Positions 1 to 64,000 of a stretch of 64,000 bases of DNA are shown piece by piece. The stretch lies in the NCBI RefSeq assembly GCF_001552785.1, contig NZ_KQ959487.1:1-64000 (forward strand), given 5' to 3'. Numbering within the stretch: position 1 is the stretch's first letter; every line of letters begins with the position of its first letter. The notes under the pieces were generated by a model. The model saw nothing but the letters and a program-made list of their open reading frames with translations, was not told where the DNA came from and searched no databases. This stretch comes from Atopobium deltae. Its GTDB lineage: Bacteria > Actinomycetota > Coriobacteriia > Coriobacteriales > Atopobiaceae. Position numbers and translations under genes: made by a program.

Positions 1-65
1 AATTTGATCTAAATTCATATTTCAAACACATACAGAGAACCCTCAGACAAAAAAGAGAGCTATAG

Positions 66-93
66 GACAAAAAAGAGCCCCTTGCGGGGCTCT
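66..93 (-). terminator. Rho-independent terminator of the cold-shock gene
   Basis: An 8-bp perfect stem (AGAGCCCC at 74-81, GGGGCTCT at 86-93) with a 4-nt loop is followed, on the minus strand, by a run of T (A-run at 66-74 on the plus strand). It lies just downstream of the stop of the csp gene. Confidence 0.85.
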
Positions 94-119
94 TGGCATT
101 GGTTTATGTATACCGTGCC

Positions 120-323
120 TTATGCTTTGCGGACGTTAGAAGCCTGCAGCTTACCATTTTGACCAGTAGTGATGTCGAATTCGACAGCCTGGCCCTCATC
201 AAGAGTTTTAAAACCATCCATATGAATCTCGGAGAAGTGTACGAACAAATCATCGCCATCTTCGCGAGAGATGAAACCATAACCCTTGTCTGGATTGAAC
301 CATTTAACCGTACCTTGAGCCAT
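120..323 (-). CDS. csp: Cold-shock protein, CspA family
   Basis: A 67-residue single cold-shock (OB-fold) domain. It begins [18 protein letters not shown], carries the RNP1-like KGYGFI and RNP2-like LFVHFSEI segments, and ends in a typical short GKLQASNV tail. The family binds single-stranded RNA and DNA as an RNA chaperone. A longer frame opens at 377, but the ATG at 323 gives the family's usual length and has an AGAAAGG ribosome site upstream. The gene has a long untranslated leader region (about 324-480), as is usual for cold-shock mRNAs, and a strong terminator behind it. Which paralogue it is cannot be told from sequence alone. Confidence 0.93.
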
Positions 324-548
324 GACGTGCCTTTCTTTCTTTGCTCCTACGAGCATAACGGAGCGCTTGGTGCGCAATACAAAATAGTCATATGACTACT
401 CGTCCTAGTGACTACCCATCATAGTTTACGCTATAGCGCTTAAAAAAAAGTATAAAAGCGCTCAACGGTCAAATGCATCGTTAAACGGAGTCTTATATTC
501 GCTTAAAGAAGACTGTTAGATTCTCAAACGGCGATGTGCGCAAGGATG

Positions 549-959
549 TTAGACTTCATCATCTACGGGTTTAAGGTCGCTGTCGAGAAGTTCAAGCCCC
601 TGCGGAACATCCGAAGGACGCCAGTTAAAAGCAACACCAACGGCACGCGCTTGATCGTAACGAATCTTTGCAAGTTCAGGATTTTTCATGCGACAATACG
701 AGTCACCTAGCTTATTAAGGGCATAGCACACATATCCAGCGGTAGCATCACCAATGCCCGAAAGCTGCATCATCGTTACCAGCGAGGCTGGCGATAAGAA
801 CAACGCCGAACGCACGTCCATTTCCATAAGCTCAGCTATAGCTTCTTCCGTTTGCTTCGCCTCGCTCACGCTGTGGCGTAAATAAGCCCCACGCAAGGTA
901 AAAGATACCGTATCGATAAAATTACGAACAATCTCAACGATATAGTCGTGCTCAAGCAT
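549..959 (-). CDS. Conserved-looking hypothetical protein, helical
   Basis: A 136-residue acidic, soluble, mainly helical protein with no signal peptide or membrane segment. It starts MLEHDYIVEIVRNFIDTV, and the C-terminal part (from about residue 78) looks like a tetratricopeptide-type helical pair (YALNKLGDSYCRMKNPELAK). I do not recognise a catalytic motif. It stands alone between csp and the ruv operon, with about 170 bp of non-coding DNA on each side, so it probably has its own promoter. A domain-of-unknown-function assignment is likely but I cannot name one safely. Confidence 0.7.
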   Translation of the reverse strand: MLEHDYIVEIVRNFIDTVSFTLRGAYLRHSVSEAKQTEEAIAELMEMDVRSALFLSPASLVTMMQLSGIGDATAGYVCYALNKLGDSYCRMKNPELAKIRYDQARAVGVAFNWRPSDVPQGLELLDSDLKPVDDEV

Positions 960-1125
960 GTGTTCCTCGTATTCTCAAAAGCACCCGCACTATGCACGCC
1001 CGTATGGCGTGTCTGCATAGCATGCCCGTATACATCGTATATGTTATATCACGTTTATAGAGCGCAGGCGATCTGCTTTGGATGAGCGGCATCGAAGAGG
1101 GGTCTGGAACTAGCTTTTAAACGAG

Positions 1126-3470: not shown

Positions 3471-5276
3471 CTAATTGTTCGAGAAGAATCCTGAGGCCCA
3501 GTGTTTGTGCTCATCCAACTCTTCTGGAGCAGCACTCATCATGTCACGCAAAAGCTCAAATGCTTCGTTGATATTCTCGTCAGATGCTTTCTCGAGAGAA
3601 AGCTGCGAAAGCTTCGCGCTTACCTGCTGATAAAAGCGCTCGACCGCTTGGATATCTGCCACACTGCGCGGGCGATCTTCCCAAGCACTATCGATGGGGC
3701 GAGAAAATTCGCTCAGGCTGCACGACGAAATAACTGGGTAGGACGGCAACGCGCGACGGGCAATTTCGCCTTGCGCTAAACGGCCGATGAGCGCCTTGAT
3801 GAGGTGGTAATCCTGTACGTTGCTGACGAGCTCGCCGATGGGCATGTCTTGCTCGATGTAGGAGTACAAAAAGTGGTCGATTTGCGTGAGTTGCGCCTGA
3901 GTCGGCTTTTGCGAAGACAGGCCGCCGAAGCCCGCAACGCGCATGTTCGAGAGCTCAAAGCGTGTGAGCACCGAGGCAGGCAACGATGACGATATGCTTG
4001 CGCGATAGCGGCCCAACCCCATTAACTGACTGCGATACACGTCTCCAAACGGCATCATGGAAGCCATGGATGCGGTCATGCGTCCCGTTTGCGGTAACTC
4101 AAGTGCGAGCGCGGTCTTATCGACAGGCGAAAGCACGAGTCCTCCGTGTTCAGAGGCCAAATTTTGCAGACGGATACCCACAAGCGCATCGATCACGTTG
4201 GTATCGTTCGCATCGAGCTGCAGGGCACGGGTGGCCATACGAACCTGTCGCCCGCTGAGCACGTCAGCCTTTAGATGCAGGTTGCGAGCCAGCTTTTTGG
4301 CATCACGAAACGCAGCAGCATCGCCCTTATCGACGATAAGAGCACGTGTGCGCGCGGGGCCAACCGCATCAATGGTCAGCGCCGCAAGGACGCTTGTTGC
4401 CATCGTGCCATCAAGGTTGAGCACCGCATCGTGCATGCGACCATCGAATTGCAAAAAATTGCGCGTTGCCATCACGAGGGCATCCCACATGAGCTGGGGC
4501 TCTACGTAGTCAGGCGGTTGTTGTGGATTCGCGACGGGGCCTTCGAAGGCGGGGTCTACCTCGACAATGCGAAAATCTTCCTCAAAGTTGGGAAACACTT
4601 CCGTGAGCTCGCCCCAAGGGGTCATCACAAAACTGCCTCCGGCATGTACCACGTCATCGTAGCCACCGACTCCGCCAATACCCACCAGCCAAGCGTTGAG
4701 CTCGGAAGCCTCTTTGGTAAAGAAACCGCGCGAGATGGCGGGCGCGAGCGTCGTTGATTCGTCGTGCGTCGTAAAGCGACCATTTTGCAAATACAGCACG
4801 ACGTCGGCGTCGACCTGCGCTTTTGTGGCAGCTTTGAGCTGGTCTTGCGTGCAGACGACCATAAAATTGATGTCATCAAAGCAAAAACCAATGTTTTCGT
4901 GAGTAGCTGTCGTTATCCATGTGCGTGGATCTTGCTGCGCAAGCATCGACTGAAATGTATAACGTAGGGGTATTAATTCTTTATTTTTAATAAAGACAAC
5001 CTCTTGAAAACTGCCAAACGGTGCGGGGAGCAGCAGCGGCACAAGGGCTGGAAGCGCGAGTTTTTGCGTCAGGCTTGCCTGCGCAAGCACAATATCAACG
5101 CCAAAGGAATCGGTTTTACCAATGCCGCCAAGGTCAGGACCCGTCAGCGCAGGAAAAGGGAAAATGATCAGCTCGGCACCCTGATCGCGAGCAAGCTGCG
5201 ATTGCGCCACCATACGCGCAATGGTCGCCTCGTAATTGGCCGAACGTGTACACATTTGCGAAATAGCAAGCTTCAT
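3471..5276 (-). CDS. NAD+ synthetase-like protein with degenerate active sites
   Basis: 601 residues with the two-domain layout of glutamine-dependent NAD+ synthetase: an N-terminal nitrilase-type glutaminase domain (about 1-250) and a C-terminal adenylating synthetase domain (about 265-540). The overall match is clear (start MKLAISQM, AALTIDAVGPARTRALIV, GDVYRSQL). Key residues look lost. The segment that is normally FPELALTGY reads FPFPALTGP (39-47), removing the catalytic Glu. The ATP-binding SGGxDS loop reads LDGTMATS (288-295). The Cys of the ICED motif may survive as FCFDD (C132). So it is probably a pseudoenzyme or a strongly changed paralogue. It is a single gene with a GGGAGTAGGGT ribosome site. 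I infer that a true NadE is encoded elsewhere. Confidence 0.75.
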   Translation of the reverse strand: MKLAISQMCTRSANYEATIARMVAQSQLARDQGAELIIFPFPALTGPDLGGIGKTDSFGVDIVLAQASLTQKLALPALVPLLLPAPFGSFQEVVFIKNKELIPLRYTFQSMLAQQDPRTWITTATHENIGFCFDDINFMVVCTQDQLKAATKAQVDADVVLYLQNGRFTTHDESTTLAPAISRGFFTKEASELNAWLVGIGGVGGYDDVVHAGGSFVMTPWGELTEVFPNFEEDFRIVEVDPAFEGPVANPQQPPDYVEPQLMWDALVMATRNFLQFDGRMHDAVLNLDGTMATSVLAALTIDAVGPARTRALIVDKGDAAAFRDAKKLARNLHLKADVLSGRQVRMATRALQLDANDTNVIDALVGIRLQNLASEHGGLVLSPVDKTALALELPQTGRMTASMASMMPFGDVYRSQLMGLGRYRASISSSLPASVLTRFELSNMRVAGFGGLSSQKPTQAQLTQIDHFLYSYIEQDMPIGELVSNVQDYHLIKALIGRLAQGEIARRALPSYPVISSCSLSEFSRPIDSAWEDRPRSVADIQAVERFYQQVSAKLSQLSLEKASDENINEAFELLRDMMSAAPEELDEHKHWASGFFSNN

Positions 5277-5402: not shown

Positions 5403-6368
5403 CTATAATAACCGTTGTTGCTCGCCGCTATTCGTGCTGTGATGAGGCTTCGTAAAATCTAGCTCGCTCCAGTCGGGCGATGCCGAGAAGGTCGTGCCAA
5501 CGATGATAAGCACACAGCACAGCAAAGCCCAAGGCGACGGCACCGCACGCATCACCAGTGCCGAGATAAGCACAGCCCAGGCAGCATACGAAATGTTGAG
5601 TGCCATACCGCGAGCAGCACCAATGCAATTAATGGCCTTGTAGTACGCCAAATACGAAGCTACACCCGCAAGCGCCGCGAGCGCCACCACGCCATTCTCG
5701 GGCGTAAACGCAATACGGATGCATGATGCCACCGAGCCCGTCAGAGGCACAACAATAAGCGCATACGTCAACGCTGATGTCGTCTCGCGGATCTGCAGGG
5801 CAATGTCGGGGTCGACGTCGGTGCCCTTCATGCCCCACGCGAGCAGTACAGCTTCCGATCCCCAGCCAACCACGCACAGACTTGCACACGCAATGCCGAT
5901 GAGTGGGTTTCCCGAGGTGTCGAACGAGGTCGTAAGCCAGCCCATAAACACAATGGCAAACAGGGCCACAAGCAGCATCACTACCTGCTTTGGCTTCATT
6001 TTTTCTTTGAGAATCACGACCGCTAAAAACGCGCCCACCGCAGGATAAAAGGCCGAAATTGCCGCCGTATATCCCGCGCCAATATGCTCGATGGCTGCCA
6101 AGTAACCACTCATGCCAATCGGCCCACCGAGAAGGGCGCCGAGCATGACCATCTTGCCGTTAGGCGTTTTAATCGCACCCACGGTTTGCGCAAGGCGTCC
6201 ACGCGCGGACATATATACGAGCAGAATAAGCGCCGCAAACACATCATGAAAGGTTGCCGAAACAAGCGCGGCATGCACATTGGTGGCATAGATACCCATC
6301 GACAAAGCAACACCCAAAATGACGGTATCGATGGCCCACAAAATGCCGCTCATCAAACCATATTTCAT
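5403..6368 (-). CDS. licB: LicB-like choline permease (EamA/DMT family)
   Basis: 321 residues with about ten hydrophobic helices in the two-repeat EamA drug/metabolite transporter pattern (second half starts near GNPLIGIACASLCVVGWGSEAVL). LicB-type members import choline for phosphocholine decoration of cell-surface glycans. Context supports that role: the gene directly follows, by 79 bp and on the same strand, a fused phosphocholine cytidylyltransferase-choline kinase. Start ATG at 6368 has an AGCGAGG site. Substrate is inferred from neighbours; any other EamA solute is possible from the sequence alone. Confidence 0.82.
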   Translation of the reverse strand: MKYGLMSGILWAIDTVILGVALSMGIYATNVHAALVSATFHDVFAALILLVYMSARGRLAQTVGAIKTPNGKMVMLGALLGGPIGMSGYLAAIEHIGAGYTAAISAFYPAVGAFLAVVILKEKMKPKQVVMLLVALFAIVFMGWLTTSFDTSGNPLIGIACASLCVVGWGSEAVLLAWGMKGTDVDPDIALQIRETTSALTYALIVVPLTGSVASCIRIAFTPENGVVALAALAGVASYLAYYKAINCIGAARGMALNISYAAWAVLISALVMRAVPSPWALLCCVLIIVGTTFSASPDWSELDFTKPHHSTNSGEQQRLL

Positions 6369-19897: not shown

Positions 19898-19985
19898 ATT
19901 GATCCTGTCAGACTCACGATACCACTCACGCATAAAGCGCCCACGCAACCATCGCGCTTCCAAGCGCTTCTACAAAAAGCTATCT

Positions 19986-42276: not shown

Positions 42277-42290
42277 GGTCTTCTCGACAG
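42277..42290 (-). repeat. Extended dispersed word CTGTCGAGAAGACC
   Basis: Exact 14-mer copy immediately upstream of the marR ribosome site, probably in its untranslated leader. Confidence 0.65.
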
Positions 42291-44254: not shown

Positions 44255-45160
44255 CTAGCTGTCGTGACGAGCCAGCCAATCGCTGACCAAGGCAAGGTAG
44301 CGGGGGTTATCGTCAGCAAAACACATGTGACGGCAGTTCGCGAAGAGCTCCCAGCGCGCGTTGGGAAGCGCGTCAAACATGGTTTTTGCGATAAGCGGCG
44401 TACACAAATCGTCGGTGCCACTGATGATCAACGACGGCGTCGCTATGTCAGGCAGCGCGTCAATATAATTCCACTGCTTCAGCGTGCCCTGCGGCATAAG
44501 CTCATTGGGGCCCCATGCCGTCTCGTATACCTCGTCGCCAAATTTCTTCTCGCGACGAAGGCACTCGGGGGCAGACTCGTCGTAGGTCACATCGCCGCAA
44601 TGCAGCTCCATAAAGTGATCCACTGCCTGCAAATATGCTTCTGACGAGAAGCTCTGCGTTCTTTCGGCCTCTTTCAGTGCTTCCCACTCGTTGGCAGGAA
44701 GCATGCGTGCCATGCGGTGGCATTCGTCTCCCCACAAATACGACGCGGGCAAAGTGCTCGACAACACAAGCGAGCGCAAGCCGGCTGGCTTGTAGTCGGC
44801 TGCAAAATTAATCGCCAGCATACCGCCCCAGGATTGGCCCAGCAGATGATAATTCGAAATGCTCAAGTGCGAAAGCAATGCTTGTAGCTCTTCAAGCCAG
44901 GTTTGTGCCACCCACAACTCAGGGTGATTACCGACATAGGACTTACCGCAGCCCAGTTGGTCGTAGCTGATGACGCTGCGTTTATCGGCAGCTAAATCGT
45001 CCAATAGTTCCATATAATTGTGCGTGGAGCCTGGGCCTCCGTGCAGCAAGATCACGGGTGCCTTGTCATGCTGGTCGACCAAATACTGTGGATTGACAAT
45101 GCGGTAGTACGTCTTATATTCCTTAAAAGGCATGTAGCCTTCGATGATTGAATCTTGCAT
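44255..45160 (-). CDS. Proline iminopeptidase-like alpha/beta hydrolase
   Basis: 301 residues from the ATG at 45160 (AGGA at 6 nt). Peptidase family S33 fold: oxyanion region LLHGGPGSTHNYME, SYDQLGCGKSYV, nucleophile elbow LLGQSWGGML, acid GTDDLCTP and catalytic His in CRHMCF. Family members release N-terminal proline or other residues from small peptides, or hydrolyse amino acid amides. Cytoplasmic. It lies beside a nitroreductase and upstream of nothing coupled. Exact substrate unproven. Confidence 0.9.
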   Translation of the reverse strand: MQDSIIEGYMPFKEYKTYYRIVNPQYLVDQHDKAPVILLHGGPGSTHNYMELLDDLAADKRSVISYDQLGCGKSYVGNHPELWVAQTWLEELQALLSHLSISNYHLLGQSWGGMLAINFAADYKPAGLRSLVLSSTLPASYLWGDECHRMARMLPANEWEALKEAERTQSFSSEAYLQAVDHFMELHCGDVTYDESAPECLRREKKFGDEVYETAWGPNELMPQGTLKQWNYIDALPDIATPSLIISGTDDLCTPLIAKTMFDALPNARWELFANCRHMCFADDNPRYLALVSDWLARHDS

Positions 45161-50279: not shown

Positions 50280-51620
50280 TTAAAAGCCAGCATAGTAGCG
50301 CTTTTGTTCCCAATCGGTTACCGCAAGACGGTACTCTTCCCATTCACGTTTTTTCTCGTTGAGCAAGTAGGTAAAGATATGCTCGCCCAAGGCCTCACGC
50401 ATAAGCGTGCTCTTCTCGAACCGCGCAAGTGCTTCGCCCAAGTCGCGAGGCAATGGATTGAAGCGCTTTGCGCGAAGTTGCTCCTCGCTCAACTTGATGT
50501 CCTCAATGGTTGCTTCATCGGGAAGCTCAAGGCCATTTTTGATGCCCCGCATACCCGCAGCTAACGTAACCGCAAACGCAAGATAAGGATTGCAGGTGGG
50601 GTCGGGACTTCTGAGTTCAATGCGCGTGGCCGAAGGTTTGTTGGGCTTATGTATGGGAATGCGCACCAAGGCTGCGCGGTTTTTGCGGCCCCAAGTGGTA
50701 TAACAGGGTACCTCTCCGTGGGGAACCAGGCGCTTATAAGAGTTGACCGATGGATTCGTAATAAGCGAAAACTCGGGCGCATACTTCAAGATGCCTGCAA
50801 TATAGTGCTTTGCCAAATCCGATAAGCCCACACCATTCGCGGAATTCTCTTCATAGAACAAGTTGTTGCCCTCATGATCCATCAGTGACTGATTCACGAA
50901 GAGCGCCGAGCCAGGGATGTCGGTAAAAGGCTTCGGCATAAATGACGCGTAATGCCCCTGATAATGCGCTGCTTCTTTGATAAGAAGACGAGCGGTCAAG
51001 ATATTATCTGCACAGGTACAGGCCTCTGCATAACGCAACTGAATGCCATTTTGAGAAGGAGCCAGCGAGTGGAACGAATACTCCACGGGGATTGACATTT
51101 TCTCAAGTGCCAAGGTGGTGCTGCGTCGCAAGTCCTGTGCATAATCGAACGGCGTCAAATCAAAGTAACCAGCATGGTCAAGAAGCTGAGGAACGACGTT
51201 GTCCTTCAAATAAAAGTATTCGATACCAGCGCCGACATTGAGGATATAGCCGAGCTTCTCGGCATCGCGAAAGACCTTATCGAGACGCGAGCGAGAATCC
51301 CCTGCAAAGGGCTCGCCCGACGGCGTCTTAATGTCGCAAAACATGCGCGCCACGCTGCTTTCGTCCGCGCGCCACGGGAGGAGCTGGAAGGTTTCGGGAT
51401 CGGGAAACGCAAGCATGTCAGACTCTTGCAATGGCACAAAGCCATCGACAGCAGAGCCGTCAAAACCAATGCCTTCCTCAAAGGCCTCTTCCAGATCTTC
51501 GGGAGAAATGGCAAGTGATTTAAGATTTCCGAGCACGTCGGTAAACCAAAGGCGAATAAAACGAATATCGCGCTCTTCTACCGTACGAAGGACAAAATCA
51601 ATATTTTGTTCGTAGGACAT
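50280..51620 (-). CDS. glnA: Glutamine synthetase, type I
   Basis: 446 residues, GSI-alpha length. Conserved blocks: FTDVLGNLKSLAI, GIGFDGSAVDGF, VGAGIEYFYL, NSYKRLVPHGEVPCYTTW and RIELRSPDPTCNPYLA. It condenses glutamate and ammonia with ATP. The short C-terminal half lacks the Tyr adenylylation loop of the beta type (it reads LPRDLGEALARFEK), so control is likely by feedback and transcription. A strong AGGAGG precedes the ATG. It is followed by the GlnR-like gene on the same strand. Confidence 0.95.
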   Translation of the reverse strand: MSYEQNIDFVLRTVEERDIRFIRLWFTDVLGNLKSLAISPEDLEEAFEEGIGFDGSAVDGFVPLQESDMLAFPDPETFQLLPWRADESSVARMFCDIKTPSGEPFAGDSRSRLDKVFRDAEKLGYILNVGAGIEYFYLKDNVVPQLLDHAGYFDLTPFDYAQDLRRSTTLALEKMSIPVEYSFHSLAPSQNGIQLRYAEACTCADNILTARLLIKEAAHYQGHYASFMPKPFTDIPGSALFVNQSLMDHEGNNLFYEENSANGVGLSDLAKHYIAGILKYAPEFSLITNPSVNSYKRLVPHGEVPCYTTWGRKNRAALVRIPIHKPNKPSATRIELRSPDPTCNPYLAFAVTLAAGMRGIKNGLELPDEATIEDIKLSEEQLRAKRFNPLPRDLGEALARFEKSTLMREALGEHIFTYLLNEKKREWEEYRLAVTDWEQKRYYAGF

Positions 51621-53089: not shown

Positions 53090-53617
53090 TCACAGCACCA
53101 CCCCACAGCGATAAGGATCTACGACAAGTCGATACTCAAATCGTAAAAAAGCAGGTGGACTCAACGAAACTCCCGCTATGGCAAAATTTGATGGCCACGG
53201 ACGTATTTGCATGGTGCATATGAACTCATCAAATTTTGGAAGCATGCTGAAGATGGCTTGCACTGCTGGCTGTGATGCCTCAAGTCTGTCAAGCTGCTGT
53301 ATTTTCACGTCAACCGTGCCCTTATCGCCCAAATGCATAATTTCGCTCACCTGCTCTTGAACGGCATGCGTGCGCTCATGCGCATTTTGTTCATCAGAAG
53401 CAGTAATGCCAAGATTGACAATGGTGTGCGAGCAAGCCATAGAAAACTTCATCGCAAGACTTATATAACGTGCAAGATTAAAAACAAGCAGAATAACGAT
53501 AAGCACCACGGGTAGCACCACCGCAAGCTCCACACTCATTTGACCAGCTTTTTCGTTATGTAAGCCTCGAAACACATCAAGCAAGGCCTTCCGGAACTGT
53601 GTTTTGCAAAGCATCAT
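53090..53617 (-). CDS. tadE: TadE-like pseudopilin
   Basis: 175 residues. A short basic leader ends in a prepilin-type junction followed by a hydrophobic stem with Glu at the fifth position (GQMSVELAVVLPVVLIVILL). The rest is extracellular. TadE proteins are minor pilins cut by the Tad prepilin peptidase and needed for pilus assembly. Its start overlaps the stop of the preceding tadG-like gene by four bases. Confidence 0.85.
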   Translation of the reverse strand: MMLCKTQFRKALLDVFRGLHNEKAGQMSVELAVVLPVVLIVILLVFNLARYISLAMKFSMACSHTIVNLGITASDEQNAHERTHAVQEQVSEIMHLGDKGTVDVKIQQLDRLEASQPAVQAIFSMLPKFDEFICTMQIRPWPSNFAIAGVSLSPPAFLRFEYRLVVDPYRCGVVL

Positions 53618-55740
53618 ATGAGCCTCACTAATTTACGAATATCGATCGTCAGGGGGATGGTGACATCCGTTCCCGGTATGGGTAATGACGCGATCGTAAA
53701 GTTTGATTCTGGCAGGCTGTCGACAAGAACAGACCCAAACGCTTTAGCTATATCTGTTGGGGTAGGTTGTTCTGGTAGACCCTCTATTTTTTGTCTTACG
53801 CTGTCGGTATTTTGATAACCAGCTTTTGTAAGTATCTTTTGCGTATTGACCAGAACAGGCTTTTTAGCTCGTAAGTCAACAGGCGCAAATCCAGCCTCTT
53901 CTACTATCTTTACAAGTGCATCTTTAAGCATATGGGCAATGTGACTTCCCCCTATTTGATCAAAGCCATCAAAAAAACGAGAGCTTGCCTGACCAATCGA
54001 TTCATAGGCTGTGTTATATGACATCAACAGCCTTCCCCATACTTGGCAAATTTGTTGAGGAATACCTGTAAGGAGACCCTGCTGACCCTGGCTTAACCCA
54101 TCAAAAAGATGCGAGAGCACGTTGCTTTGTGCGTCGGCTTTGTCAAGTGCTAAAACTGCTCCCGAAACAGCGCAGCCCCCTGGCAGCGTTGGTTGTGCCA
54201 AACCAAAGGAAGTAGCCCCCGCCACCTGCGGTTCTGATTGATTTCTGAGGACAACGCCAATGCAACCCCAAGCTCCTGGAGGGCAAAGTTTTGGGCGATC
54301 AACCCTGAGCGCTTCCAATGCCCTTGCAAACACATCCTTCGAAGCATCAGCTGATGACTTCACGGCCTTCTCGGCTTCAATCAATTGGTTCTGGTATGTC
54401 TCGTATCGTGAGGCACAGTCCACAATTTTTGCCCACCAGTGTTCAAAGCCATTTTCAATCGACGTGGACGCTGCGGGAACTTTGCCAACGCTGCTCGTTT
54501 TAAAGCGACAGATAGGACATTCTTCAACACGCCCCGCATCTAAATCTGCAAGCGAGGCAAAGCCTTGTGCCTGCCCCTGCACATGGGGGCAAACCGGCGA
54601 GCAATGCAAAATCTTTTTATTTCCCTGCATAGTCATAGGCCATAAGGCTTGCGTATATAGCGAGGTCGTTTTAAGTTCCTCGGTATTCATTGGAAGCTTT
54701 GGAAGATCTACCCGCACGGTCTTATCGGCATTGACCTGCACACTTCCGCGACTCAGCGTCTCGTATGCATACTGATAAAACGCTTTGCGCGCAGCTGAAT
54801 TGCAAAGTTCTTCTACCCCCTCATGAGCTGGCTTTTCTTGCGCAAGACGCCTTGCATAATAGGTTTGTGCACGGCGCAGAGGCACTTCAAAATTCCAGCC
54901 CTGCGCTGTATCAAACGCAGGATTGTCCTGCTCGGAAATATCCGACAACGTTTTGGCTCGCTGCCACAAACAATAGGGTCGAGCGCCGCAATCGAAAAAC
55001 CAAGCTTCTTCAAGTGCTTTTTGAGCCTCTTGCTTTGCCTCATGGGCCTTATCGGATTGTTTACCAAGCGTAGTTGCACTCTCTTGAAGATCAGTTGTGT
55101 CGGGTAGTGTCTCATCCAGCGCAAATTTGCTTTGCGATTGTAGCGGGAAAGGTATGGTTGTGCCTGCATGCAATACCTGCTTTTGAGAGGCCTGACTTGC
55201 ATTTTTCTTGATGGTGCTTGTGCCATTATGCGCAATGAGCACAGGGAGCGCTTGCTCAAATTTTGCCAAACCCTTATTTGCCGTTTTTGCAAACTTTGCA
55301 CGCGCATCAAAAATTTTGTGTGCCGCATTAACCGTCTCGAGCCCTTGTGCAGAAAGACCAGGCACTATCGATAAGACCAATCCGACGCCGCCGACGAGAG
55401 CGCCTGTTATCCCCATGCTCAAAACGCACGAGTCTAGGGTTTGTGCTACTGTTGTGTATCCAGCAACAACATTTGCGCCTGCAAGCGCCGCTGCATCAGC
55501 CACGGTTTGTGTCTTATTTGAGTGCTGCACATACCACCCAACCAAACTCATACCAAAAAGCAGGCTCACGCTCACAACAAGAGAACACGCCACTGCAATT
55601 GAGGTATAACCTCCTGTTTCAGCCAGAAATAACCAGAGCGGCCCTTTTGAGCCTTTTGATGCCTTCGGATACTGCAGATGCTGCGATCTTCTTTTTGGTT
55701 TTGAAGAGCTATTGTTCCCACAGAGAAACCCATGTCTCAT
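53614..55740 (-). CDS. Large TadG-like pilus protein with a metal-binding insert
   Basis: 708 residues from the ATG at 55740, which has GGAGGG upstream; a frame start at 55815 overlaps the previous gene more deeply. A basic N-terminus and one membrane helix (TSIAVACSLVVSVSLLFGMS) are followed by QTVADAAALAGANV, the hallmark TadG-type (Flp pilus-assembly) segment. The long extracellular part has a coiled-coil region and, near residues 379-411, an HCSPVC ... CPIC pattern like the small metal-binding motif H-x-G-C ... C-x-x-C found beside nucleases and in envelope proteins. Role of that insert unknown. Sits between two TadE-like genes. Confidence 0.8.
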   Translation of the reverse strand: MRHGFLCGNNSSSKPKRRSQHLQYPKASKGSKGPLWLFLAETGGYTSIAVACSLVVSVSLLFGMSLVGWYVQHSNKTQTVADAAALAGANVVAGYTTVAQTLDSCVLSMGITGALVGGVGLVLSIVPGLSAQGLETVNAAHKIFDARAKFAKTANKGLAKFEQALPVLIAHNGTSTIKKNASQASQKQVLHAGTTIPFPLQSQSKFALDETLPDTTDLQESATTLGKQSDKAHEAKQEAQKALEEAWFFDCGARPYCLWQRAKTLSDISEQDNPAFDTAQGWNFEVPLRRAQTYYARRLAQEKPAHEGVEELCNSAARKAFYQYAYETLSRGSVQVNADKTVRVDLPKLPMNTEELKTTSLYTQALWPMTMQGNKKILHCSPVCPHVQGQAQGFASLADLDAGRVEECPICRFKTSSVGKVPAASTSIENGFEHWWAKIVDCASRYETYQNQLIEAEKAVKSSADASKDVFARALEALRVDRPKLCPPGAWGCIGVVLRNQSEPQVAGATSFGLAQPTLPGGCAVSGAVLALDKADAQSNVLSHLFDGLSQGQQGLLTGIPQQICQVWGRLLMSYNTAYESIGQASSRFFDGFDQIGGSHIAHMLKDALVKIVEEAGFAPVDLRAKKPVLVNTQKILTKAGYQNTDSVRQKIEGLPEQPTPTDIAKAFGSVLVDSLPESNFTIASLPIPGTDVTIPLTIDIRKLVRLI

Positions 55741-56179
55741 AATCACCCTCCAACCATTGCGGTCGAACCTTTGATGATGCTTTTTCTTTAAGCACGATGC
55801 CCTGCTCATCAGCATCTACAAACAAACGAAGAGCTCCATAAAACAGCGGCAGTGGCTTTGCATGTCCGCGAATCGTTATTTGGCACACATCAGCCTCTGG
55901 CTTTGCGCAATCCACAACCCAGTCTTGCGCTCCCCCATTATGGAAAAGACTCACCTCGGGGACCATCGCTAAACGGCGTTTTACAAATGCCTGCACCGCA
56001 TTAATATCAGTAGTGGTTTGCAGCGCGCGGATGGCCTGCTGAGAAGTTGAGTACATAATCGCCTTGGTATAAAACAAGCACAGCGTTTGTAATAGGCACA
56101 GGAGGAGCACCGCACAGACAGGAATAATAAAAGCAGCTTCAACACTTGATTGAGCTTGTTTCTCAAAAAAGAAGTGCAT
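55709..56179 (-). CDS. TadE-like pseudopilin
   Basis: 156 residues from ATG 56179. Leader, then a prepilin-like junction and hydrophobic stem with Glu (AQSSVEAAFIIPVCAVLLLCLLQT), then an extracellular part with a likely Cys pair (VVDCAKPEADVCQIT). Second minor pilin of the locus. The start overlaps the preceding gene by 17 bases, and the end overlaps the tadG-like start by 32 bases, so the group is translated as one unit. Ribosome site weak. Confidence 0.8.
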   Translation of the reverse strand: MHFFFEKQAQSSVEAAFIIPVCAVLLLCLLQTLCLFYTKAIMYSTSQQAIRALQTTTDINAVQAFVKRRLAMVPEVSLFHNGGAQDWVVDCAKPEADVCQITIRGHAKPLPLFYGALRLFVDADEQGIVLKEKASSKVRPQWLEGDYETWVSLWEQ

Positions 56180-56453
56180 CTTGCCACGCACCAATATGCT
56201 CGTGCCCCTGAAACGTATGCGTGCACCATGTGATGACATGTGCCAAAAAACTACCCTTTGTCATGGCATGCAGCAGAGCAATAAGACAGAGCATCAGTCC
56301 CGTGCATATCCCTAAGACAAGCGCATATTCCACCGTAGACTGCGCTAGGGCCTCTGATACAAAACCGCTGCAGACAGACAAGGCACACGTCTTCTTAGCA
56401 TGCGTATTCTTAACACGCGTCTTCTTAGCCCTGATACGCCTTACGAACTGCAT
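56163..56453 (-). CDS. Short prepilin-like protein
   Basis: 96 residues if it starts at Met 56453. A Lys/Arg-rich leader contains a small direct repeat (KKTRVKNTHAKKT, from a repeated 12-bp block in the DNA near 56,395-56,430). Then comes QSTVEYALVLGICTGLMLCLIALLHA, a type IV prepilin-like junction with Glu at position 5 and a hydrophobic stem, and a short tail. It resembles Flp or TadE in the N-terminus only. Could be a third minor pilin or an altered Flp. Start uncertain. Confidence 0.65.
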   Translation of the reverse strand: MQFVRRIRAKKTRVKNTHAKKTCALSVCSGFVSEALAQSTVEYALVLGICTGLMLCLIALLHAMTKGSFLAHVITWCTHTFQGHEHIGAWQDALLF

Positions 56454-56964
56454 CTTTTGTAAGTCGCACCGTACTAATGCGACTTGTTTGCTTGCTATGA
56501 CGTGATACAAAAACAATGCTTACTCCCTCCTTCGTTTGAAACGTGCAGCTCCATACATTTCCTTGTAAATCGAGATATCCGTAACGGACTACTATGCTGT
56601 CATTGAGGCGCTGGTAGTGCTTGAGCACTTGGGTAGCAGCCTGTGTAAGATCCCCAGAAACCTCTTTTGTTTCCTGCGAGAAGATCTGGCGAGCATTTTG
56701 TTTTTTCGGGCTTGCTGCATTGGTTTGCGCTTCTGCTTCTAGAGATACGCGCTTAGAAGATAACGATGCCTGCTGCGCTGATCTTCGTTGTGAATACGCC
56801 AACATAAAGGCTAGGGCAACTCCCAGTATGAGGACCAATGCAAGCAGACTGACCACACGAGTCATCCAGTGCGTCCTGCGCATGCGTTTTAAACGCCATA
56901 ACCATCCGCGACGCTTGCACTCCGTACGTCTACCTGCTCTTTGCTGCGCTGCTCGAAAACTCAT
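56425..56964 (-). CDS. Single-pass membrane protein of the Tad locus
   Basis: 179 residues. An Arg-rich N-terminus (cytoplasmic by the positive-inside rule), one membrane helix (VVSLLALVLILGVALAFMLA) and an extracellular domain with a small mixed alpha/beta C-terminus. I recognise no family. Start ATG 56964 overlaps the flp stop (ATGA), so it belongs to the pilus operon. It may be an assembly or anchoring factor. Confidence 0.75.
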   Translation of the reverse strand: MSFRAAQQRAGRRTECKRRGWLWRLKRMRRTHWMTRVVSLLALVLILGVALAFMLAYSQRRSAQQASLSSKRVSLEAEAQTNAASPKKQNARQIFSQETKEVSGDLTQAATQVLKHYQRLNDSIVVRYGYLDLQGNVWSCTFQTKEGVSIVFVSRHSKQTSRISTVRLTKDAVRKAYQG

Positions 56965-57200
56965 AAAGAATTAATGCCTTGCGCAATGGTGTCCCATAAC
57001 TCACTTACCTTGTCCTTAAAGGAAATGATGGCCACAATGGCAATCACCACTAAGACGCCAACTAAAATCGCGTACTCCGTGGTACCTTGCGCGCGCTTCT
57101 CATCTTTGAGAAGTCTCAACAACTGCCTCAATTGTCTTTGAACTATGTTGCAACAGCGTTTTGCGTGGGTTGTTACAACATGAAGCGGAATAATATCCAT
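56961..57200 (-). CDS. flp: Flp-type major pilin
   Basis: 79 residues from the ATG at 57200 (GAAAGGG site). Basic leader, then AQGTTEYAILVGVLVVIAIV, the Flp prepilin site with Glu at position 5 and a Tyr beside it, then a short tail (VSELWDTIAQGINSL). Processed Flp forms the thin adhesive pilus fibre. The leader (about 40 residues) is longer than usual. No prepilin peptidase (TadV) gene is seen in the window, so it must be elsewhere. Confidence 0.92.
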   Translation of the reverse strand: MDIIPLHVVTTHAKRCCNIVQRQLRQLLRLLKDEKRAQGTTEYAILVGVLVVIAIVAIISFKDKVSELWDTIAQGINSL

Positions 57201-57267
57201 AGCTGCCCTTTCTAACGTGGTCATTTGATAACGTGGTTGTTTGATTACTCATATAAAACAGCACCTA

Positions 57268-57981
57268 CTACGAGAATTGCATTGCGGAGCTCAAAAGCGG
57301 GCCCAAAATAGCAAGAAGCATAGCGGGAACAATAAGTGTTCCGAGCGGTATAAGCATTTTGATAGGAACTTTTTCTATCTGCTGCTCAAGCAAGCTGTGC
57401 TGTTCAGCACGAATGGAGGCTGCCTGCACCGAAAGTGCTTGTGCAAGCGGCGTTCCAAAGAGGAGTGCTTCGTCCACCGCATGCGCAAAACAACGAAACG
57501 GCTGCTGTTGCAATTGTTCTGCCAGATCATACAATGCTTCATTTCGAGAGGTCACACCTATTTCCCAGCTCAATAAAGCAGCAGCAAGCTTTCGTGATAA
57601 GGCGTTATCGAAGCGTTCGCAATAGAGACGAAGCGATGCATCAAATGACATATTTGCCGAGAGACCCAAATTGAGAATGTCCAAAAACACGGGAAGTTCT
57701 CGCAAGCACTCCTGCTGCTCTTGTTTACGCTTCTTTTTCCCAGCAAAAAGTTTTGCTTCAAGCCCTTGAATACAAAGCTTTACAAGCAGGTTTTGCACAA
57801 GCTTGCCGCTCGAAGCTGCATGAACGAAGACGCTTCGCTCAAGCGTTTGTCTTTGCTTTTTTGTTGCCGAGAGGACCTTTGGTGATACTGATTTTGACGA
57901 TGCTGATGCACTTATCACGAAGGCCCAAATAAATACCAAGCTACTAAGCAGGGCTCCATGAACGACAAACGCAATGTTCAT
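57268..57981 (-). CDS. tadC: Tad inner-membrane platform protein TadC
   Basis: 237 residues, type II secretion F-domain (T2SSF). An N-terminal helix, a cytoplasmic part with FLDILNLGLSANMSFDASL and EIGVTSRNEALYDLAEQL, and C-terminal helices (VPIKMLIPLGTLIVPAMLLAIL). With TadB it forms the platform that the TadA ATPase turns. The start overlaps the tadB stop by four bases. Confidence 0.9.
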   Translation of the reverse strand: MNIAFVVHGALLSSLVFIWAFVISASASSKSVSPKVLSATKKQRQTLERSVFVHAASSGKLVQNLLVKLCIQGLEAKLFAGKKKRKQEQQECLRELPVFLDILNLGLSANMSFDASLRLYCERFDNALSRKLAAALLSWEIGVTSRNEALYDLAEQLQQQPFRCFAHAVDEALLFGTPLAQALSVQAASIRAEQHSLLEQQIEKVPIKMLIPLGTLIVPAMLLAILGPLLSSAMQFS

Positions 57982-58928
57982 AGCTTTATCACCGCCATCA
58001 TGTGCCGAATGACCAGCAAGGCACAGCCATCAAGCATAAGCGCTATCCCCACGCACAGCATCCCTGGAAACGAACACACTGCCTGCCTAAAATCAAGAGA
58101 AAGCCCACTGAGCAGAAGTAGCATTATCACAGGTAAAGAGCAGACAATTTTTACCGACAGCCGCGCTTGCGCCGTTTTTGTGCGCAAACTTCGTACGAGC
58201 TGCTCGCGCTCTTCCAGCATGCGTGAAGAGGTTGCCAACATATCGCTTAAAGAACCACCTGTACGCTGGGAAATCTCCAAAGCCATACCCAACAACTCTG
58301 AGCCTGGCACGGCAAGCGTCTTATCGAGCGTACGCAATACTTCAGAAAGCCCCATACCGCAACGCAACGACAGTGCCGCGGTCAAAAATGTTGGAGCCAA
58401 ACTATTGCTCGCATCGTTACCGATGTATTCAAACGCCTGAAAGAGCGTTTTGCCAGAACTCAAGGCTGTCGATAAGGAGCGCAAAATTTGTGGCATCTCC
58501 CGAATGTGCTGCTGAACTCTACGCGTACACGCTGCACGGCGAGCGGCACTTACCAGCGCCACACTTACTATCGAAGCAGCTATGAAACCCAGGCTAGGAC
58601 CAAAAAGCAACACGCTCATGCCGCTGAAAGCAGTCCAGCAAACTACCACAAAGCCGCAGGCTTCCTGCGTGTTTACAACGACACCACGGTCTGCCAATAT
58701 GCGAGCACTGGCGGCATATACGGTATTGAGGGAACTGCACTTTGCAAGCCATCGAATCCCACGCAAAGATGCCAAACTTCGTAGCAGAGCTTTTAGACCT
58801 CCCACCTGTGCTCCAAGGTTTTTATGTATCACCGCAGAGCTTTGTTTGTGCGCATTACCAGGTCCAACGAACACAAAAACAGCCCCGCCTGCGAAAAGCA
58901 TTATGAGTATGAAAAAGTAGATTTCCAT
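57978..58928 (-). CDS. tadB: Tad inner-membrane platform protein TadB
   Basis: 316 residues. N-terminal membrane helix, a T2SSF cytoplasmic domain ([34 protein letters not shown]) and C-terminal helices ([20 protein letters not shown]). Pairs with TadC as the pilus platform. ATG 58928 has GAGGTG at 5 nt. The start lies 28 bases inside the tadA end. Confidence 0.9.
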
Positions 58929-60316
58929 TGCTGCACCTCAGCTTGCGTAACAATTCCCTCATACAGAGCTCGATTCATAAAAGGTGGTGTACAACGCAGC
59001 CTCCAACGTCTTCCGCTCATATCGAAGGAGACCAATTCCTCAAGTTTTACCTGGCCATTGGTGGCTTGTTGCACGAGCGACGTTGTGGTAATTACCCTTG
59101 AACCGTCGGGCATACGCGCCGACATGACGATAAGATCGAGTGCTGTAGCAACTTGTTCTTCAATGACATCAACAGGCAAATTCATCCCAAAGCGAGCCAT
59201 AAGCACGAGTCGTAAAATTGCCTCTCGTGCGCTACCCGCATGTAGGGTTGTCAACGAGCCGTCATGCCCCGTATTCATTGCCTGCAGCATGTCAATGCAC
59301 TCTTCTCCACGAACTTCGCCGACAATAATACGATTCGGACGCATGCGCAAAGCATTTTTCATCAGGTCGCGAATACTGACTTCGCCTGTACCCTCGATCG
59401 ACGACTCGCGCATTTCAAGGCGAACGACATGCGGGTGCGTATCAAAACGCAGCTCAGCAGAATCTTCGATGGTAATAATGCGTTCTTGAGGCGAGATTTC
59501 TGATGACAGCGCATTTAACAACGTCGTTTTACCTGATCCCGTACCTCCTGCTACCGCAATGTCTTCTCGGCATTTAACGGCCCACGACAATAATTGTGCA
59601 TACCATGCTGGTAATGATTTGAGCTGCACTAATTGTGCAAGCGAAGCAATGCGGTCCGAAAACTTTCGAATCGTCAGAATGGGGCCATCAAGCGCTACGG
59701 GCGCATTAACCACATTAACGCGATAGCCGTTTGGCAGACGCGCATTCACAAGCGGATGCTGTTCATCAAGGCGTCGACCCAAGGGTGCTAAGATGCGATC
59801 CACCACCATAAGAATCTGCTCTTTTGACTCAAAAATACGGCTGCTCTGACACATCTTTCCAGCGCGCTCAAAAAAGAGTGACGATGTCCCGTTGACCATG
59901 ATTTCGGTAACACTTGCATCATCAAGCAAAGGTTGCAAAGGTCCAAAACCCAATACTTCATCCAAAACCTCTTTGATGAGTTCGGGATGGTTTGCCTCGG
60001 AAAGGCCCTCGTAATGCGAGGTATTAAGGATAGTTTGGCAACTCACCGAAAGCTCATCGTACGCATTATGCAACGTGGCACTGTGGGCAATTCGTGCGAT
60101 GGTATCAAGACCAAGTTCCTTTACTAAATCATGTTTCAAGCGAGAAGTATGCTGGTCATGCAAGCTTTGAACTTCATGGTTAAGCGGCTCGAACACTGCT
60201 GCATCACCAGAAGACCCTTGATCAGAAAAATCCCGCGCGGCAAGCGCCTGTGCAGAAAAGCCCTGCGCGTCCATACTTGCCTTTTGAACGCTTTTAACAC
60301 GAGCGAGTAAACTCAT
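58901..60316 (-). CDS. tadA: Tad secretion ATPase TadA (CpaF family)
   Basis: 471 residues. N-terminal domain (about 45-200) with [21 protein letters not shown], then Walker [10 protein letters not shown] (257-265), Asp box, Walker B-like [14 protein letters not shown] and His box [12 protein letters not shown]. The hexameric ATPase powers pilus extension and possibly retraction. It overlaps tadZ by one base (TGATG). Confidence 0.95.
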
Positions 60317-61641
60317 CAGCTTACCTCTCTCATACGTGCAAAGAAGCCTTTTTGCTTCGTGGGAAATTTAGTATCAAGTGCTTTTTGCGCCTCGGGATGA
60401 TCTGGCAAACACCCAAGTTCTGAAAGTATCTTTGCAATACAAATCTTTGTACTTGTCGAAAATGGATTATCCAACTCGATAAGTTCCTGTAGATGCCCCG
60501 AGTGTAGAAGCTCTCGCAGTTCAGCCCCACCATCAGCAGCACGCAACAAGCGCGCAGCTTCAAGACCCACGTCCGCGCGGTACACATATGCCTCATGAGG
60601 CTTTGCAACGTCATACTTGTTTGTTACACGAATGATCCTTGTACGTGCCACACCAAGACGCACTGCCAAAGCGGCGCAACGCGACAACGAGCCCACCTCA
60701 GCCGAAACATCATCCGCAACAAGGACCAAACGATCGCAGAGCTGCGCTGCAAGAGCAACCGACTCACTCCAAAAAGTAGAAGTATCAACAAGAACGAGAT
60801 CATAGCCATTGGATAGGCTTATAAGCAGATCATTTGCCATCGGTGTAACCGTCTCGGCAAACTCGGGCTTCTCGCAAGGACCCCATAGCTGTATCTGATC
60901 AGAAATTTTAGTTGCTGCTTGCAGCACCGTCTCATCAAATGGCTGTTGAGAAAATCGAGCGAGGTCGCCACTTTTTACGCCAAATAAAGACGCGAGATTG
61001 CCTGTTCCTAAATCTAAATCCACAAGCGCGACGCGCATTCCCCATAACGAAGCATGGGTTGCCATTGCAGCTGTGAGAGAAGTTTTTCCAACACCACCAC
61101 GTCCTGACGCCACCACAATAATAGGTGCACAATCTTTTTTACGAGTCACATGCATGGCGTTTTTAGACAGGTTCTCTAAGCTTGGTAATCCCTCCACTTT
61201 TGCCAACCCATCTGAGCTGGGTAATTCCCCTGGCCTAGACAATCCTTCTGGTTCGTCGAGATCCCCCAACTTGAGAGCAGATGACTTTTGAGCTGCACCC
61301 TGCGCAAAAGCCGTAAATGCTTCAAGAGTATGCACCCGAGAAATGCGCGCCCGCGCAGCTCTTGAACGCAGCGAACCCGAAGGGTTTGCAAGCACTAGCA
61401 CCACTTCATCGGCATATCCATCCTGCACTAATGCAGAAGCAGCGTTAATAGGAGTCACTTCATCAAGTGAAGGGCCAATCAACACTGATGCACGATGTGG
61501 CTCATGCTCTTTAAGACAACTACGCACGCGCCCCGCATCAGGTTCTAAAATAAAAGTGGCTTCAGGATGTATCCCGCGCATGGAACGCACAAGCGCTTCA
61601 CTATACTGCACATCTGAGCATATGTACCAAATATTAGCCAT
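60316..61641 (-). CDS. tadZ: TadZ/CpaE-type localisation ATPase
   Basis: 441 residues. N-terminal receiver-like domain (1-115; no ordinary phospho-acceptor site is clear), a Leu/Gly/Ser/Pro-rich linker with short repeats (about 126-160), then a MinD/ParA-like ATPase. The deviant Walker A reads SGRGGVGKTS (179-188): the signature Lys of MinD (KGGVGKT) is Arg here. TadZ places the pilus machine at a pole or patch. ATG 61641 has a GAGGGA site. Arg for signature Lys may mean weak ATP hydrolysis; many TadZ proteins share such changes. Confidence 0.88.
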   Translation of the reverse strand: MANIWYICSDVQYSEALVRSMRGIHPEATFILEPDAGRVRSCLKEHEPHRASVLIGPSLDEVTPINAASALVQDGYADEVVLVLANPSGSLRSRAARARISRVHTLEAFTAFAQGAAQKSSALKLGDLDEPEGLSRPGELPSSDGLAKVEGLPSLENLSKNAMHVTRKKDCAPIIVVASGRGGVGKTSLTAAMATHASLWGMRVALVDLDLGTGNLASLFGVKSGDLARFSQQPFDETVLQAATKISDQIQLWGPCEKPEFAETVTPMANDLLISLSNGYDLVLVDTSTFWSESVALAAQLCDRLVLVADDVSAEVGSLSRCAALAVRLGVARTRIIRVTNKYDVAKPHEAYVYRADVGLEAARLLRAADGGAELRELLHSGHLQELIELDNPFSTSTKICIAKILSELGCLPDHPEAQKALDTKFPTKQKGFFARMREVS

Positions 61642-61650
61642 CGTATTCCC

Positions 61651-62490
61651 TCACTCTGTTGGGCTTGCATTGCTCGGTTGTATGTCATCAAAATTTTTAA
61701 GAGCCTTTTCGCTGGTATCGGCTCCTCTCGTCGGGCTTGCGTTATTGTTTTTTGACTTATTCGACTGCGGCGAGGTAGGCGTTACGCTGGACAGTGCATC
61801 AGGTTTTGTACTAGACGCCGCGCCAGGCTTACTTGCTGCATCAGACGATGTACCAGAATTGCGTGGTAAAGCCTCAGCGGGAACCACAAAACGCAATTCT
61901 CCTCGCGAACTCACCGCTAAAATCTTTTCAACCTCTGTTTCGGGAACGGCAAGCGTCAACATGCCATTGGCGAGTGTCTGTCCATCCGAAATGGCCAACA
62001 CTAAAATCTCTGAGGTAATACGCTGTGTGGAATCGGCATTGCTTACATAAGCAGCCAGTTTTGTTCCCGCCTGCACATGGGGCGATAAGCCTAATTTCTC
62101 GCTCAAAGGAATGCTGATCGCGACCATCCCTTGCGGTACCGAAAGGCTCTGCCCTGCTTCACGAAAATTAAATTTCGAAAGTGGCGCGCCTGCACAAACA
62201 GGAACACTTACTGATTTGCCGATAATATCGTCAATACGCGTAATTGCCTGTTGCGGCGCGAGTTCGCTCACCCAATCGCGCAGCACAACATCAGCAGCCT
62301 CAATGGGTTTGCCTGCTTCAATCGTATGCGTTGCCACAGCGACGCGCACAATGTCACCGCCATATTTTGCAAGTAATTCCGAGCGCTGAGCCGCAAAACG
62401 AGCCTGCACTGATTGCGTATAGGATAAAAACACTACCCCCACCGCCAGCGCACACGCGCACGAAAAAATGATTCTGAACTTCCGTGACAT
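61651..62490 (-). CDS. cpaB: Flp pilus assembly protein CpaB (RcpC-like)
   Basis: 279 residues from ATG 62490, GGAG at 5 nt. Signal-anchor (IIFSCACALAVGVVFLS), a SAF/beta-clip domain (DIVRVAVATHTIEAGKPIE, VVLRDW) and a second domain with SVPQGMVAISIPLSEKLGL. A Ser/Thr/Pro-rich C-terminal tail follows. CpaB may bind peptidoglycan and scaffold the pilus. It opens the cpaB-tadZ-tadA-tadB-tadC-flp run. Confidence 0.88.
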   Translation of the reverse strand: MSRKFRIIFSCACALAVGVVFLSYTQSVQARFAAQRSELLAKYGGDIVRVAVATHTIEAGKPIEAADVVLRDWVSELAPQQAITRIDDIIGKSVSVPVCAGAPLSKFNFREAGQSLSVPQGMVAISIPLSEKLGLSPHVQAGTKLAAYVSNADSTQRITSEILVLAISDGQTLANGMLTLAVPETEVEKILAVSSRGELRFVVPAEALPRNSGTSSDAASKPGAASSTKPDALSSVTPTSPQSNKSKNNNASPTRGADTSEKALKNFDDIQPSNASPTE

Positions 62491-62625
62491 CACCACTCCG
62501 TACCACGAACTTATCGGTACGTTTATTGTGAAAGGTACACAAGCGGGTAAGGGTCACAATATGAAGTTTTCGATTTTGAACTGTCAGCTTTCTAACAAAA
62601 ATCTAACAGGTTTCTCTGCACATAT

Positions 62626-62639
62626 GGTCTTCTCGACAG
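62626..62639 (-). repeat. Extended dispersed word CTGTCGAGAAGACC, intergenic
   Basis: Exact 14-mer in the 183-bp gap between cpaB and rsgA, so it is free of codon constraint. Confidence 0.75.
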
Positions 62640-62673
62640 CAAGGACAAAAAGGCGCAGCAAGGACACATGAAG

Positions 62674-64000
62674 TTAGGGCAACATCGCGGGATCAATATC
62701 GGGCGCAAGCGAACGAGCGGCGCTTTCCATTTCCTGAGCAAGCGCTGCATACGCCGCAAGACGTTCAGGAGCAATGTGTTCGCTGCATATAGCTTGCATA
62801 ACCTGGCAGCCTGGCTCGTGTGCGTGAGTGCAATCTCTAAATTTGCAGTCCTGCGCGGCATCAACAATGTCAGAAAAGACAAGCGAAAGCCCCTGCTCAT
62901 GACCCATAAGCGCTAAATTGCGCAAGCCTGGGGCGTCGATAATAACGCCTCCGTGAGGAATTTTAACCATGCGGCGGGCGACGGTGGTATGTCTTCCCGC
63001 ATCGTCGGATGCGCGTACCTCAGCGGTTTGCAGGGCCTCGTGACCCAATAAAGCGTTAAGCAAGCTTGATTTACCTGCGCCAGACTCACCGAGCACAAGA
63101 GTGCAGGTCTTCTCGACAGCATAGCTGCGCAGGGCTTCAAGGCCCCACTGCGCAAGGTCGGGCACTTCGGTTTGAGGCTTCGCTGAGAAGGGCGCGGAGG
63201 CCAACGGCGACACTTGCGTGGATGGCTGCCAGGTGGGAGAAGAGCTCGTAACTACGACGGGGATATCGGTACCGACAACGCGACGTAAAAGCAAAATTTG
63301 CTCGATGAGCTGGTCATGTTGGGTAATTCTGTCGGCCTTCGTAAGGACAATAACAGGGCGAGCGGAGCAGTCTCGCGCGATGACGAGTGAGCGTATAATA
63401 CGATTAATATCCAGTGCTGGAGCCGAATTCTGCGCTGCGGGCAAATTCGTCGCCACCGAAGCAGCCGCATCCAACAGTGGCTGCGCAATAAAAACCACGT
63501 CAACATTAGCAGCCAACACCTGCTGAGTGCCTCGGCGAGAACCCCGCCAGCGAGCGAGTTGATTTTTTCGCTTGATCACGGCTTCTATAACACCCATATC
63601 ATGCGCATGCGGACGACGCACAACAACCCAATCGCCCACCGCCACGCCTTCGTAGGCATCTTCTGCTCGAGAAGCGCACGCAGGAACTTTTTTCCCACTA
63701 GAGGGCTGACGAGAAGTTCGTAGCGCAGCATCGCGAGAAGCCCTAGCGGCACTTCGAGAAGATTTGTCAGAATCGCGAGCGACCTGCGCTGCATCGCGAG
63801 AAAACACAGGCGCATACTGCGCTCGAAGCGTGGCGTCCGCGCAACAAACCGCAGGAAATCCGCGGTCAAGACGCACAACACACCCGAGGTGATACTGTTG
63901 TGCGTCTACTCCTGTTTTTTTTGAAAGACGCTTGGTGAGCTGCTCATACTCACGATATTGCTCATCGCTTACAGCCAGCTGATCAAAGCGAGGTGCGGCG
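62674..64000 (-). CDS. rsgA: Ribosome biogenesis GTPase RsgA (partial, start outside window)
   Basis: The minus-strand frame is open from the stop at 62674 through the window end, so the N-terminus lies beyond base 64000; GTG 63876 is inside the coding sequence, not its start. Upstream codons read YEQLTKRLSKKTG and GCVVRLDRGFPAV, matching RsgA N-termini. It has an OB fold, circularly permuted GTPase motifs (LTKAD, GESGAGKSS, DAPGL) and a zinc knuckle (CKFRDCTHAHEPGC). RsgA matures the 30S subunit. An Arg/Ala/Ser-rich insertion of about 45 residues (near 63,660-63,790) splits the OB domain and holds four CGAGAAG copies. Confidence 0.92.
   Translation of the reverse strand, partial: AAPRFDQLAVSDEQYREYEQLTKRLSKKTGVDAQQYHLGCVVRLDRGFPAVCCADATLRAQYAPVFSRDAAQVARDSDKSSRSAARASRDAALRTSRQPSSGKKVPACASRAEDAYEGVAVGDWVVVRRPHAHDMGVIEAVIKRKNQLARWRGSRRGTQQVLAANVDVVFIAQPLLDAAASVATNLPAAQNSAPALDINRIIRSLVIARDCSARPVIVLTKADRITQHDQLIEQILLLRRVVGTDIPVVVTSSSPTWQPSTQVSPLASAPFSAKPQTEVPDLAQWGLEALRSYAVEKTCTLVLGESGAGKSSLLNALLGHEALQTAEVRASDDAGRHTTVARRMVKIPHGGVIIDAPGLRNLALMGHEQGLSLVFSDIVDAAQDCKFRDCTHAHEPGCQVMQAICSEHIAPERLAAYAALAQEMESAARSLAPDIDPAMLP
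63106..63119 (-). repeat. Extended dispersed word CTGTCGAGAAGACC
   Basis: Exact 14-mer inside rsgA, read as Ala-Val-Glu-Lys-Thr directly before the GTPase P-loop strand. Confidence 0.65.

Follow-up and report, generated by a model that had tools for sequence, protein, structure and literature searches.

The first 64,000 bp of contig 5 of Atopobium deltae (the window, which is the whole stretch of DNA described here) carry many copies of a dispersed word, TGnCGAKAAGnnC (K is G or T), which is established as a genome-wide recognition word with clade-specific dialects, and which is probably a DNA uptake word read by a competence system built on a Tad pilus. A preliminary description of this DNA had proposed an uptake word or some other genome-wide recognition word; the second and more general part of that claim stands, and an uptake role is what the combined evidence suggests. 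This anaerobic actinobacterium belongs to the family Atopobiaceae, and the best relatives of the PurL protein encoded in the window are from Atopobiaceae and other Coriobacteriales. The genome (G000) is 1.45 Mb in 35 contigs, and its statistics draw on 464-484 kb, the 484 kb set comprising the window and 21 further stretches. For relatives 20-140 kb was sampled per genome, and the dialect comparison used 55-484 kb per genome; genes were taken as the longest open reading frames (ORFs), without a trained gene finder.

CGAGAAG is present 75 times in the window (39 copies on the plus strand and 36 on the minus) where 8.6 are expected and the maximum in 100 dinucleotide shuffles is 16, which bears out the roughly 70 copies (39 plus, 35 minus, versus about 8) reported previously. 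Some near variants are scarce as described (CGAAAAG 8, CGACAAG 15), but CGATAAG was overlooked, and with 61 copies it is the second commonest 7-mer. CGAGAAG is thus enriched but needs correcting as a core: the core is CGAKAAG, and its flanks in the 484 kb define a site of about 13 bp, TGnCGAKAAGnnC, with T at position -3, G at -2 and C at the third base 3′ of the core, beyond which base preferences are milder. In the context TGn...RnC (R is A or G) there are 150 copies with CGAGAAG and 59 with CGATAAG, and between 0 and 23 with each other single-base variant. The full word occurs 272 times in the 484 kb, compared with 1.8 under uniform composition and 210 if the flanking matches were independent, and because these co-occur above independence it behaves as one extended site. 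Genome-wide, CTGNCGAKAAGAYC is present in 84 + 86 copies and its reversed control in none.

The word does not stand out in a plain Markov ranking of window k-mers, as models of high order already account for it through its sub-words, and codon-preserving nulls were used instead. Shuffling the window ORFs in this way does not reproduce the counts (70 CGAGAAG observed, 15.1 +/- 3.7 after shuffling). Under a strict null over 464 kb, which leaves every protein sequence, the pooled counts of codons and the dinucleotides at codon junctions unchanged, CGAGAAG (501 versus 129 expected) and CGATAAG (305 versus 88) rank first and second of all 7-mers, and the full word is found 234 times in ORFs where the codon null gives 8.7, an excess of about 27-fold. 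The core is over-represented in the three sense frames (425/32/20 observed, 120/9/2 expected) as in the three antisense frames (194/41/129 observed, 66/8/26 expected); the rise is about 3- to 10-fold across the six, and the direction of transcription is therefore without influence. Intergenic DNA is also rich in the word, with 89 copies of CGAKAAG where a first-order Markov model for the 484 kb predicts 13.5 (6.6-fold), and 89 of CGAGAAR where a second-order model predicts 19.8; the intergenic copies named earlier (at 3380, 3435, 20276, 30678 and 62629) do lie outside the ORF set. Strand balance, a further check proposed at the outset, is close: with leading and lagging strands assigned by GC skew, cores are near parity in G000 (492:439) and in five relatives (82:94, 58:57, 56:57, 53:64 and 44:49). 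The claim that the word is more than a codon effect is upheld by the strict null, the six frames and the intergenic copies, and by the dialects seen across genera. Neither of the outcomes that the preliminary description named as refuting it, similar counts after codon-preserving shuffling or a lack of intergenic enrichment, was observed.

The word is shared with relatives in related but distinct forms. Genus g1 consists of G000 and two sister species, G201 and G202, in which CGAGAAG and CGAGAAA top the 7-mer list; in the five genomes of genus g4 (G053, G133, G029, G034 and G049), which we take to be Lancefieldella and call so throughout, the top two are CGAGAAG and GCGAGAA; and genus g2 (G004 and G039) prefers TGCCGAGAA. 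(We assume that G053 is Lancefieldella parvula, and that G101 is Olsenella uli.) A framework of T(-3) G(-2) n CGAGAAR nn C is common to the sisters, Lancefieldella and g2, and T(-3), G(-2) and C(+9) all exceed the codon null in g1, Lancefieldella and g2. Bases specific to a clade are found at three positions: the fourth and seventh of the core, and -1, where any base occurs in g1, G predominates in Lancefieldella and C predominates in g2. Across these three genera the enrichment of the full word ranges from about 10- to 40-fold, and in G217 it is 8-fold. Several genera of higher GC content (G215, G081, G189, Thermophilibacter, Tractidigestivibacter, and G172 from a different family) still have CGAGAAG at the top of the ranking, but with an excess of only about 2-fold, and these weak signals are less secure. 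By the same test CGAGAAG is unremarkable in g6, g7, g15, g102, g105, Collinsella, Slackia and the Eggerthellaceae-like G038, as well as in Bifidobacterium, Gardnerella, Gemmiger and E. coli. Conservation at orthologous sites, which the preliminary description had suggested examining, is partial: at orthologous codons 12-32% of the G000 words are kept as words in relatives versus 5-11% for random heptamers (small samples), and the pattern is one of turnover with modest retention.

Acquired DNA is poor in the word, as seen in one island of 26.8 kb on the same contig as the window (about 167.3-194.05 kb; L014, L015), on which this observation rests. It encodes a type III restriction-modification system, an OLD-family ATPase, a SNF2-like helicase, a Tet(M/W)-type ribosomal protection gene and an ABC-F-like protein, and contains 14 core words and a single full word, compared with expectations of 53.7 and 15.9 respectively.

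All ten of the extended copies located in the preliminary description are exact matches. CTGTCGAGAAGACC is at 32045-32058 on the plus strand and at 37326-37339, 42277-42290, 62626-62639 (intergenic) and 63106-63119 on the minus strand; CTGGCGAGAAGATC is on the plus strand at 16215-16228, 30674-30687 (intergenic), 32711-32724 and 33755-33768, and CTGGCGAGAAGACC is at 20272-20285 (plus, intergenic). Full motifs elsewhere in the window are at 581-593, 5481-5493, 25749-25761, 44642-44654 and 63707-63719 on the plus strand, and at 18311-18323, 18365-18377, 26525-26537, 28925-28937, 32503-32515, 47852-47864 and 51252-51264 on the minus strand. Those of the GATAAG form are at 789-801, 15338-15350, 22667-22679, 27285-27297, 37235-37247, 43200-43212 and 59125-59137 (plus), and at 4113-4125, 47993-48005 and 54718-54730 (minus). 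Even spacing, another property that was to be looked for, is rejected: cores are randomly spaced at about one per 500 bp, with exponential gaps (coefficient of variation 1.03). Two words can also overlap in inverted orientation to form a 12-bp palindrome, CTTMTCGAKAAG, which is present 17 times in ORFs of the 484 kb where the codon null gives 1.1, with window examples at 20587, 23046, 33514, 40034, 41219 and 43807. A role as a hairpin or terminator was considered for these pairs and rejected, as all 17 are inside ORFs and nearly all share one frame, coding for Leu-(Ile/Leu)-(Glu/Asp)-Lys.

Strand neutrality, the length of the site, the dialect pattern, the depletion in the island, and the presence of ComEA, ComEC, DprA and Tad genes together support a role in DNA uptake, and from them we infer binding of the word, a receptor for it, biased uptake, and the transformability of these bacteria. 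In the scheme we propose, word-bearing double-stranded DNA would be bound during natural transformation by a component at the surface or tip of the Tad (Flp) pilus, or by a partner protein; ComEA and ComEC would import one strand, and DprA and RecA would recombine it. More frequent entry and recombination of fragments with the word would let it build up through biased gene conversion, on either strand and in coding and intergenic DNA alike, as far as the protein sequence allows, and it would drift into dialects as lineages diverge.

The putative uptake machine is encoded by a tad cluster on the minus strand of the window. The genes include those for CpaB/RcpC (61651-62496; PF16976, PF08666), a TadZ/CpaE-like ATPase (60316-61641; PF01656, with CpaE_hom_Actino below its own cut-off), the TadA/CpaF ATPase (58901-60316; PF00437, 5.6e-55), TadB-like and TadC-like membrane platform proteins (57978-58928 and 57268-57981; both PF00482), and a Flp-type major pilin with a GTTEYAILVG processing motif (56961-57224; a weak match to PF04021 Class_IIIsignal, 1.3e-4, just below the curated cut-off). 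A TadG-like protein (53614-55815; PF13400, 4.5e-5) and a TadE-like minor pilin (53090-53617; PF07811, 1.2e-6) are at the other end, and between these and the major pilin are two single-pass proteins. One (55709-56239) has no Pfam match and is TadE/F-like by look only, from its position and N-terminal hydrophobic stretch; the other (56425-56964) is very basic (isoelectric point 11.3), belongs to no family, and is possibly a DNA-binding surface component and a candidate receptor. TadA is the only T2SSE (type-IV-filament) ATPase over the curated cut-off in the genome, which is 97% complete. Elsewhere in G000 comEA adjoins comEC, which codes for a 546 aa protein (contig 25, L131:9022-10662), and dprA is also encoded. 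We note that a full-length PilB/GspE-type ATPase (E ~1e-125) is present in other Atopobiaceae (e.g. g11 and g14; G203, G208, G214, G215 and G221), which indicates that they probably have real type IV pili, unlike g1 and Lancefieldella.

In the 2025 literature, uptake words are named only for the Neisseriaceae and the Pasteurellaceae (PMC12616744), two unrelated Gram-negative families, and the G000 word matches both in how densely it occurs, its strand behaviour, its extended site, its dialects and its depletion in the island. The neisserial DNA uptake sequence (DUS), GCCGTCTGAA, is likewise short and non-palindromic, with thousands of copies per genome and dialects that follow phylogeny (PMC3630211). 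Its sequence is nonetheless unrelated (1 copy in 484 kb, 0.9 expected), and whereas a type IV pilus and its minor pilin ComP serve DUS uptake, G000 has only the Tad-type ATPase (ComP itself was not searched for). The G000 core also differs from DUS in allowing two bases at one position and in having unconstrained positions beside it, and the function of DUS is demonstrated whereas that of the G000 word is proposed. The pasteurellacean uptake signal sequences (USS), AAGTGCGGT and ACAAGCGGT, resemble the word in being dispersed and in having a strict core with further flanking positions (PMC12616744), but they too are unrelated in sequence (2 and 3 copies in 484 kb respectively, 3.7 expected for each), and the Pasteurellaceae are Gram-negative with a type IV pilus whereas G000 has a Tad pilus and no outer membrane. 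With both sequences at chance level and a different pilus, the word is not a member of either group. A parallel in gene content is Micrococcus luteus, an actinobacterium in which transformation requires Tad and ComEA/ComEC without ComG (PMC4322843; PMC6370729). It has tad, comEA and comEC and no comG, as in G000, and needs two tad clusters, whereas one ATPase was found in G000.

Several observations weigh against an uptake role. The passages searched on M. luteus do not mention an uptake word (PMC4322843). We found no report of transformation in the source organism and no uptake assay, a literature search combining Coriobacteri- with natural competence and comEC was empty, and no receptor for the word was identified. 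ComEC of G000 is short and lacks the C-terminal metallo-beta-lactamase domain present in that of G201 (L147:8808-11240), which could be a sign that competence has changed or is decaying. Nearly all Atopobiaceae have ComEC and a T2SSE ATPase, whether their genus bears the word or not, and gene presence consequently does not discriminate. Within genes the core exceeds the codon null only modestly, by about 4-fold, and the full word is tilted mildly by strand (152:120 in G000, by GC skew), although this tilt probably arises from the Glu-Lys frame in mostly co-oriented genes.

We consider three other explanations for the word. It could be maintained by another protein that binds or modifies DNA across the genome, such as a nucleoid or chromosome-folding protein or a solitary methylase of the kind suspected for HIP1 of cyanobacteria, which provides the precedent that an abundant word need not be an uptake word; the excess of overlapping inverted pairs would also fit such a protein. 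HIP1 (GCGATCGC) is similarly very abundant and dispersed, but it is palindromic whereas the G000 word is not, and GCGATCGC itself is only 3-fold above the uniform expectation in 484 kb of G000 (22 versus 7.4). Restriction sites are normally avoided rather than enriched, the known segregation sites (KOPS, matS and parS) are ill-matched by the density of the word and its lack of strand or position bias, and no such protein turned up, with no search aimed at one. We regard this explanation as unlikely.

It is similarly improbable that the AddAB helicase-nuclease, the genes for which are in the window at 13020-19963, reads the word as a Chi-like signal in recombination. AddA and an AddB-like partner are encoded, and like the word, Chi-like motifs show over-representation and are scarcer in acquired DNA (PMC8022716). 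They are also short, and are read during recombination. However, Chi is polarised to the leading strand and in E. coli is present about once per 5 kb (PMC8022716), whereas the word is near parity in six genomes and one core per 500 bp is dense for Chi. An E. coli K-12 control (200 kb, same null) gives 58 Chi sites versus 28 expected, a 2-fold excess compared with 27-fold for the 13-bp word, and a leading:lagging ratio of 42:18. Known Chi motifs are 5-8 contiguous bases, and the word is informative over 13 bp. A Chi role is therefore disfavoured on both strand behaviour and length. The AddB partner (16763-19963) resembles known AddB models only weakly, scoring 27.8 bits with addB_Gpos, for which the cut-off is 903.7, yet its gene is directly beside addA.

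The weakest explanation is that the word is a product of codon or codon-pair choice (GAG-AAG, Glu-Lys, following a codon that ends in C) and that nothing reads the DNA. It draws on the 425 of 841 coding copies in the sense Glu-Lys/Asp-Lys frame and on the small excess in high-GC relatives, for whose weak signals it is a possible cause. It is most improbable overall, and for G000, the two sister species, Lancefieldella and g2 it is already refuted: the excess survives the strict null, the other five frames are raised equally (416 versus 111 expected), the intergenic copies and the three flanking bases are enriched, and the control genomes (Bifidobacterium, Slackia, Collinsella and E. coli) are flat.

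An uptake word read through the Tad pilus would have wider implications. Queries on the word, or on uptake sequences and Atopobium together, gave nothing relevant and no report for this group in the literature covered, which excludes most subscription papers. On balance, we lean towards this being a third uptake language of independent origin, operating via a Tad rather than a type IV pilus and with at least three dialects in the Atopobiaceae; it would be the first in the Actinomycetota, as well as in a bacterium with a single membrane. If so, its occurrence in a distant phylum, in cells that use a different pilus and lack an outer membrane, would mean that uptake languages arise repeatedly, and it would provide an independent system for the old problem of whether selection maintains such words or a biased receptor produces them as a by-product. 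Lancefieldella and its kin, which are human oral commensals, would be predicted to be transformable with self DNA, for which the known words and dialects serve as concrete reagents.

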